Source: Pelagicoccus sp. SDUM812003 (GTDB lineage Bacteria; Verrucomicrobiota; Verrucomicrobiia; Opitutales; Opitutaceae). Taken from it: 64,000 nucleotides of DNA. A program made the translations under genes and the position numbers. Of the stretch, positions 25,698 through 26,282 are shown piece by piece (position 1 is the stretch's first letter; each line of letters opens with the position of its first letter). The notes under the pieces are model-generated. The model was not told where the DNA came from, did not search any database, and saw only the letters and a list, made by a program, of their open reading frames with translations. The stretch lies in assembly GCF_031127815.1 (NCBI RefSeq), contig NZ_JARXHY010000005.1, positions 1 to 64,000 of the forward strand, given 5' to 3'.

Positions 25698-26225
25698 GTC
25701 AAGGACCGCCATTCGCCACTCCTTCGCCACGCGAACGTTCCACACGTTCTCCAGAAGTGGCAGCCTCGCAGGGATGGGCGCCTGCGGCTTTGTCGTCGCT
25801 GCGCTCTTCGGAACGAACCCCTTCGGGTCTTCTCGTCCCTGCTCTAAGTCAAGGACCGCCGTTCGCCACTCCTTCGCTGCGCGAACGTTCCACACATTCT
25901 CCAGAAGTGGCAGCCTCGCAGGGATGGGCGCCTGTGGCTTTGTCGTCGCTGCGCTCCTCGGTACGAACCCCTTCAGGTCTTCTCGCCCCTGCTCCTAGGT
26001 CAAGGACCGCCGTTCGCCACTCCTTCGCTGCGCGAACGTTCCACACGTTCTCCAGAAGTGGCAGCCTCGCAGGGATGGGCGCCTGCGGCTCTGTCGTCGC
26101 TGCGCTCCTCGGTACGAACCCCTTCGGGTCTTCTCGTCCCTGCTCTAAGTCAAGGACCGCCGTTCGCCACTCCTTCGCTGCGCGAACGTTCCTCACGTTC
26201 TCCAGAAGTGGCAGCCTCGCAGGGA
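25698..26225. repeat. Tandem array of about 150-bp repeats carrying the 3' end of tRNA-Gln
   Basis: Three full units start at 25701, 25851 and 26002 (150, 151, 150 bp), plus a 74-bp partial fourth unit at 26152-26225 that runs into the tRNA gene. Units differ by only a few bases each. Every unit contains the 17-mer TGGCAGCCTCGCAGGGA (25758-25774, 25908-25924, 26059-26075, 26209-26225), identical to the last 17 nt of the tRNA read on the minus strand, including CCA. In tRNA orientation the array is the 3' flank of the tRNA, repeated. Each unit can form small hairpins (TTCGC/GCGAA, ACCC/GGGT). The lengths allow open frames on both strands with 50-codon repeats, which I do not call as genes. Confidence 0.92.
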
Positions 26226-26282
26226 CTCGAACCCCGACAGATGGAACCAGAATCCATAGTGCTACCATTACACCACGAGGCT
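26209..26282 (-). tRNA. tRNA-Gln (CUG anticodon)
   Basis: A complete 74-nt cloverleaf on the minus strand. The acceptor stem AGCCTCG/CGAGGCT is perfect, with discriminator G and encoded CCA. The D arm is GTGT/GCAC with GG in the loop. The anticodon stem ATGGA/TCCAT encloses TTCTGGT, giving anticodon CTG (Gln, CAG codons). The T arm CGGGG/CCCTG holds TTCGAGT. The last 17 nt recur in the repeats at 25758-26075. Fold and identity were determined by hand. Confidence 0.93.

Follow-up and report, generated by a model that had tools for sequence, protein, structure and literature searches.

Structure of the tRNA-Gln locus

The window, that is, the whole stretch of 64,000 nt that was analysed, contains a single tRNA according to ARAGORN, a tRNA-Gln(ctg) encoded on the minus strand, so that the tandem array on its 3' side extends toward lower coordinates. 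The features of the locus are as follows, with bit scores for the two models, R1 and R2, that are described below.

26209-26282, minus strand: tRNA-Gln(CUG) gene with encoded CCA (ARAGORN; Rfam tRNA 59 bits for 26212-26282)
26209-26225, minus strand: last 17 nt of the tRNA-Gln gene itself, the stretch copied in the units (exact matches)
26059-26208, minus strand: unit 1, 150 nt (TRF, exact copy; R1 19.1 bits, R2 38.7 bits), with spacer 26144-26208, arm, T-stem 5' strand and TTCG 26115-26143, core of type B 26076-26114 and tRNA 3'-end copy 26059-26075
25908-26058, minus strand: unit 2, 151 nt (TRF, exact copy; R1 14.8 bits, R2 40.1 bits), with arm 25964-25992, core of type B 25925-25963 and tRNA 3'-end copy 25908-25924
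25758-25907, minus strand: unit 3, 150 nt (TRF, exact copy; R1 17.7 bits, R2 34.5 bits), with arm 25814-25842, core of type B 25775-25813 and tRNA 3'-end copy 25758-25774
25698-25757, minus strand: partial fourth unit, 60 nt, spacer part only (TRF array end; sequence)

The tandem array occupies 25698-26225 with a period of 150, 3.5 copies and 94% matches (TRF). The original prediction, a tRNA-Gln gene followed by tandem repeats across 25698-26282, is thus confirmed by ARAGORN, TRF and exact matching, as is the presence of three full units and one partial unit of about 150 bp, which measure 150, 151 and 150 nt with a partial unit of 60 nt. The last 17 nt of the tRNA, comprising the last base of the T-loop, the 3' strand of the T-stem, the 3' strand of the acceptor, a G and CCA, recur as exact copies at 26059-26075, 25908-25924 and 25758-25774; they had been predicted for every unit and are present in every full one, the partial unit being made up of the spacer part only. 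The near identity of the units is compatible with the recent amplification or conversion that had been proposed. With a draft assembly in 88 contigs, the number of units at this locus could still shift. Comparable arrays were found within a 5.5-Mb contig of a congener and in a one-contig genome of another genus of the family.

Read along the minus strand, unit 1 begins with a 65-nt spacer, which is followed by GCAGGGACGAGAAGACCCGAAGGGGTTCG, the 39-nt core TACCGAGGAGCGCAGCGACGACAGAGCCGCAGGCGCCCA and finally TCCCTGCGAGGCTGCCA. The GCAGGGA of the unit arm is the complement of the TCCCTGC in the tRNA 3'-end copy, and the series GCAGGGACGAGAA..GGGGTTCG..TCCCTGC of the window units corresponds to an RtT-like arm GGAYGAGAA with GGTTCG, closed by the 3' strand of the T-stem. 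In each unit the arm complements the T-stem, together with the first bases of the acceptor, of the tRNA 3' end by which that unit is closed; one strand of each unit is therefore predicted to be able to form a closed helix, with the remainder of the acceptor 3' strand and CCA after it. The folding energy of the window units was no better than that of shuffled sequences (z -1.82, +0.69 and -1.56). Neither an integrase gene inside the 150-151-nt units nor a GIY-YIG frame at the tRNA-Gln locus was found, the one PF01541 match of the genome lying elsewhere, in a 499-aa frame on contig C10.

Copies behind other tRNA genes

Copies of the last 14 nt of each tRNA, with at most one mismatch and within 800 nt downstream, were sought in the genome of the window (G000), two congeners (G002 and G006), another genus of the same family (G010) and another family (G055). 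Such copies lay downstream of 11 of 40 tRNA genes in G000 (Asn, Asp, Gln, Glu, Gly, His, Leu, Phe, Ser twice and Thr), 8 of 39 in G002, where two tandem Glu genes were credited with a single element, 5 of 36 in G006 and 4 of 35 in G010, two of the last being 34-nt copies around a GIY-YIG frame. None was found downstream of the 36 tRNA genes tested in G055. The tested tRNAs form part of 42 (G002), 43 (G006), 64 (G010) and 45 (G055) tRNA matches. At every locus of this test the copy measured 14-21 nt, save for the two of 34 nt.

Controls were near zero. The own 3' end was present in none of 186 upstream flanks over the five genomes (0/40 in G000), and the 3' ends of other tRNAs were found downstream in 1/1484 (G000), 1/1420 (G002), 0/1208 (G006), 3/1128 (G010) and 0/1204 (G055); the 5' end of the tRNA occurred downstream in 5/186. 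The array therefore exceeds what would be expected by chance. Contig ends in G000 fall less than 200 nt from the 3' side of 6 of the 40 tRNA genes, against 0.12 expected (contigs C3, C5, C6, C16, C29 and C30), and two of these genes are among the 11 with copies. This excess suggests that more arrays may hide in the draft assembly.

Common frame and core types

The units share a frame composed of an arm complementary to the T-stem of the host tRNA (GGGAYGAGAA), the T-stem 5' strand with TTCG, a core and a tRNA 3' end. The commoner core, type A, has the form RGGGATGAGAACCC - n - GGGTTCGACGGAGCGAAGCGGAGATGGGC - hairpin - GGGGCGAAGCCCTGAGCGCAGCGAAYCA - ATCCC...CCA (16 sequences). Type B, to which the window units belong, has the arm and GGTTCG as in type A with the core GTACCGAGGAGC..GCGACGACA, and type C (Thr, Arg and Phe) resembles a reversed B core by eye. 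R1 is a covariance model of type A, built from 16 sequences of Verrucomicrobiota alone; R2 is a sequence-only model built from 20 type B sequences.

Run on ten genomes of the family, R1 yielded 79 matches, 3-15 in each genome, and a tRNA was present at 24 of the 25 loci scanned out of 30. Applied to 73 loci it gave 103 matches, from which 74 type A matches were kept (one per locus, two for L409) and 29 further copies or weaker matches dropped. A full tRNA gene lay on the same strand and no more than 450 nt upstream in 62 of the 74, representing 17 anticodons; the R1 source sequences are among the 74, location being no part of the model. The median distance from tRNA to element at the 62 loci was 58.5 nt, and the corresponding distance at E. 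coli tyrV is 63 nt. The idea that the array is special to tRNA-Gln was not borne out, given the 17 anticodons and the 11 of 40 tRNAs of the same genome with copies. By the 450-nt same-strand rule the remaining 12 loci are without a full tRNA gene. Among 20 regions inspected, 15 hold a full tRNA gene, from which the extra elements in L384 and L392 lie approximately 1.9 and 4.9 kb away, four have an orphan tRNA 3' end before the type A element (L383, L393, L395 and L399) and in one the element, preceded by a 3' copy of tRNA-Glu, lies close to where the contig ends. The second tRNA copy differed at no more than 2 of 18 positions in 44 of the 62 loci and at more than 2 in the other 18, showing that the copy is not strictly kept.

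As a negative control, R1 was run on 28 tRNA loci of G055, where the best match reached 12.7 bits (E 0.44). In the window the three units stood out, the next match scoring 4.5 bits, with the core skipped in the alignment. Other type B units (L017, L079, L032 and L008) scored 16.6-28.0 bits and three His units 17.0-19.2 bits. Among 17 sources that contain copies or remnants, seven were without an R1 match at E 1, namely the type B Asn loci L066 and L085 together with L143, L096, L095, L097 and L099.

The fit of the arms to their hosts was assessed over the 62 type A loci, where the left arm had a mean local score of 7.26 against its own T-stem and 4.54 against those of other tRNAs; the own T-stem outscored at least 95% of the others in 33. 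Standard pairs filled 91.7% of pair cells over 98 distinct rows, as opposed to 71.4% when shuffled and at most 56.0% for slid structures, and both-side changes were seen in 17 of 18 pairs, figures that lean toward the model since the alignment was fitted to it. An earlier scan for inverted T-arms, with a swap control, had placed only 7 of 40 tRNAs at the 99th percentile, and the stronger case came from R1.

Probable kinship with RtT of E. coli

The tyrT repeats of E. coli have for decades been a curiosity of one tRNA operon, giving an RNA of unclear use. The tyrT/tyrV units of E. coli K-12 take the form GGGGAAGGATGAGAAGC...AAGGTTCGAC...hairpins...TAATCCTTCCCCCACCACCA. Like the window array, RtT (RF00391) is a tandem series on the 3' side of a tRNA gene in which every unit includes the 3' end of the tRNA; it likewise possesses an arm with GGATGAGAA complementary to T-stem and acceptor, GGTTCG, and a spacing close to 60 nt (63 nt at E. 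coli tyrV; type A median as above).

The models match reciprocally. R1, whose sources include no E. coli sequence, finds all four E. coli RtT copies at 31.1, 30.7, 27.9 and 25.2 bits, with the next match at 6.3. Conversely, the Rfam RtT model scored 43.1 and 43.0 bits on a Pelagicoccus Tyr array, below its cut-off of 45, and 39.0 bits on Pro, 27.9 on the Gln array of G006 and 26.6 on Ser. It gave no match to the type B Asn locus L066, nor to the window units up to E 10. Since the type A and RtT models match across phyla, the parallel with tyrT that had been drawn as an analogy probably reflects real kinship, the units of the window itself being linked through the frame alone. The window array differs from that of E. 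coli in its tRNA-Gln and type B core, as opposed to tRNA-Tyr, and in units that miss the gathering cut-off of 45 bits and are without an Rfam RtT match. As to the inner core hairpins, R1 passes over the cores of the window units, and the type B core is unlike that of type A. As judged from sequence, the array is tied to RtT by its frame, through type A, and by Rfam's rule is not a member.

Release of rtT in E. coli by tRNA-processing enzymes is cited in PMC4986893. The same paper describes Arrc20 and Arrc21 of Pasteurellaceae, assigned to the RtT family by Rfam and expressed as judged by Northern blot, which also adjoin tRNA genes other than Tyr (Asn and Lys). These RNAs belong to another phylum, however, and are placed upstream of the tRNA genes; the passages concerned mention no array made up of tRNA 3' ends. 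No description of RtT-like arrays in Verrucomicrobiota was found in the open-licence papers searched.

Range and dispersed cores

The taxon survey covered the phylum of the window. R1 matched 27 of 288 Verrucomicrobiota genomes at E 1e-4 under strict filters, 20 of them in the order of the window. RF00391 matched 5 of the 288 at E 0.001 and none above its cut-off, and among 14 control genomes it matched E. coli alone. R2 matched 24 of 223 genomes of the order at E 1e-4. In six genomes R2 gave 24 matches, seven of which were in the genome of the window. Plasmid collections yielded one match, inside a tRNA body, and phage collections none.

A tRNA gene was present at 12 of 28 R2 loci scanned (of 30), a proportion in which tRNA-linked matches are favoured as R2 was built partly from tRNA-linked copies; at several loci the element lay upstream of the gene. 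A scan of named genomes for the core pattern gave 20 stretches, including Pelagicoccus and other Opitutia or Puniceicoccales. Of 22 pattern matches, 12 had an ARAGORN tRNA no more than 700 nt away, a further two were at pieces of tRNA recognised by eye and eight were at neither. The B core is biased to tRNA genes and not bound to them. With regard to occurrence of the unit across the genome away from tRNA-Gln, which the original prediction had put forward as an argument against itself, other tRNAs carry their own versions and the 39-nt core is found at tRNA-less places; dispersal of the whole unit was not seen.

B cores upstream of a tRNA gene were observed at L287 (tRNA-Ser(gga)) and L289 (tRNA-Met, two copies), each preceded by the 5' part of the tRNA up to the D-loop in a mirror image of the 3' arrays. 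The tRNA-less B cores of L358, L370 and L284 lie in recurring similar flanks (GACGCCCGCG..GGCCGT.CCACC), as do those of L375 and L293 (ACTTCTCC..GGAGAAGCC), as if inserted in other repeats. Positions 763-900 of L294 hold a B core and, approximately 100 nt on, an inverted similar core (GTACCGAGG ... CCTCGGTAC), resembling a small element with inverted ends. Insertion of the B core into hairpin loops was considered and dropped, as flanking complementarity was no better than random at all eight non-tRNA places; for the best of the eight, 47 of 257 random places were as good.

Descent and candidate movers

Across 35 Pelagicoccus type A loci, core identity averaged 0.748 for the same tRNA in different species (46 pairs), compared with 0.686 for different tRNAs of the same species (70 pairs) and 0.681 for different tRNAs over 479 pairs. 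In G004 the core at Val(tac) shares 94% identity with a Leu(caa) core of G006, yet has an arm that fits Val. In the stretches shown, tRNA-Gln of G002 is element-free, as are tRNA-Asp and tRNA-Gly(tcc) of both G002 and G006. The comparison of the locus in relatives that had been proposed returned a divided answer: in eight relatives (G001-G007 and G019) a second 3' copy at tRNA-Gln(CUG) was present in three, G004, G006 and G019, and by the rule absent from the other five, one of which, G005, has an element with a decayed copy.

An origin from RAYT/REP systems was examined and rejected, none of 24 Y1_Tnp loci in six genomes having the motifs. REP/BIME sequences with RAYT are similarly short, repeated intergenic DNA, and the B core is partly dispersed; they differ in that type A lies behind tRNA genes and the Y1_Tnp loci are without the motifs. 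In PMC2965389, rtT is described as similar to members of a BIME cluster.

Small GIY-YIG frames were also considered as a mover. They stand directly behind tRNA genes in G010 (tRNA-Arg, L276; tRNA-Met, L185; tRNA-Asn, L234) and in G006 (tRNA-Leu(cag), L231), and by eye behind orphan tRNA 3' ends in L230 (G010) and L237 (G006); in G007 a GIY-YIG-like stretch with an in-frame stop follows the type A element at tRNA-Leu(cag) (L245, by eye). At tRNA-Arg(cct) of G010 there are three tandem units of approximately 318 nt, each with a GIY-YIG frame and 34 nt of the tRNA 3' part. These resemble the window array in their tandem arrangement behind a tRNA gene and in ending with a tRNA 3'-end copy, and differ in the 85-aa GIY-YIG frame, the longer tRNA part and the lack, by eye, of a type A or B core. 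The candidate was rejected for the window's genome, whose only match, in the 499-aa frame, does not qualify as a mover there today.

G007 has two type A elements 22.8 kb apart, one at an orphan 3' end of tRNA-Val and the other at the tRNA-Val gene (L258 and L264, contig C6, approximately 210.8 and 233.6 kb). The intervening stretch encodes a GroEL-like protein and other genes, with no integrase by eye among ORFs of at least 100 aa, which leaves the suggestion that the units serve as integrase substrates unsupported.

Alternative explanations

The chief rival is a purely selfish reading. It holds that a DNA element associated with tRNA genes is inserted within or beside T-loops and keeps an intact tRNA copy, RNA playing no part, with some B cores at D-loops and acceptors and the T-stem arms arising as a by-product of target copying. 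In its favour, congeners differ in whether a given tRNA has an element, and B cores also turn up in ordinary intergenic DNA and, accompanied by copies of the tRNA 5' part, on the upstream side of tRNA genes (L287 and L289). The cores of Pelagicoccus type A cut both ways: 18 of 35 are nearest to a core at another tRNA, as movement would predict, whereas 17 are nearest to that at the same tRNA of another species, which argues that much is inherited in place. No mover was found to set beside this reading, given the Y1_Tnp loci without motifs and the lone GIY-YIG match described above, and it is regarded as somewhat unlikely.

Sites of T-loop att type start in the T-loop or T-stem and reach CCA, and the copies found here also run from T-loop or T-stem to CCA. 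Remnants of integrative elements that target tRNA T-loops would moreover account for the type A elements that follow orphan 3' ends of tRNAs (L383, L393, L395 and L399). Such an origin is nonetheless improbable, for the interior has a conserved structure with covariation and does not consist of the remains of an element, and no integrase was seen by eye between the two elements 22.8 kb apart. Near-identical units with a partial end unit do look like plain tandem duplication, begun by chance inside a tRNA gene and neutral, and in a draft of 88 contigs they might also be an assembly artefact. For the class this is refuted by a frame that E. coli and other genera share and that recurs behind further tRNAs, by copies confined to 14-21 nt at all loci but the two of 34 nt and by arrays in a one-contig genome; the number of units at the tRNA-Gln locus is left to it, and as an account of the array it is very improbable indeed.

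A bolder proposal makes RtT one visible branch of an ancient class of mobile elements that spans phyla and is tied to tRNA genes. Such elements would arrive with arms cut to the T-stem of the new host and a fresh copy of its 3' end. By such means the tRNA would stay intact and each copy would end in a tRNA-like helix with CCA. To our knowledge a self-tailoring insertion mechanism of this kind is known nowhere else, and the proposal is put forward as an unlikely one.

Transcription and proposed mechanism

A scan for terminator-like sites on the minus strand found none from tRNA-Gln to the array, between the units or beyond the array down to 25400; its only minus-strand hit falls within the tRNA gene. 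Transcription from tRNA-Gln into the array is possible on the evidence of these sequences. At the 62 type A loci, a stem with a T-run occurs between tRNA and element in 13, which speaks against co-transcription there, and a run of five T in 19.

On balance, the window appears to hold tandem, RtT-like hairpin elements that are bound to a tRNA gene, probably co-transcribed with the tRNA, multiplied by recombination and sometimes moved between tRNA genes. The units would be transcribed together with the tRNA, no terminator-like site intervening, and then cut by tRNA-processing enzymes, as the tRNA-like helix and CCA at the end of each unit and the analogy with E. coli rtT suggest. Their number would change through recombination between identical stretches, to which the near-identical units and the partial end unit point. 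Now and then a core would reach another tRNA gene, with arms there that fit the T-stem of that gene.

Implications

The array is of a kind common in its genus and is probably kin to a known, little understood element. With the same frame behind many Verrucomicrobiota tRNA genes, and arms that track the T-stem of the host, what was a curiosity of one operon becomes a comparable class. Such a class allows comparison of the parts that are kept, the parts that depend on the tRNA and the generality of transcription and processing. In genomes of this kind, RtT-like elements may also account for contig breaks and spurious ORFs behind tRNA genes.
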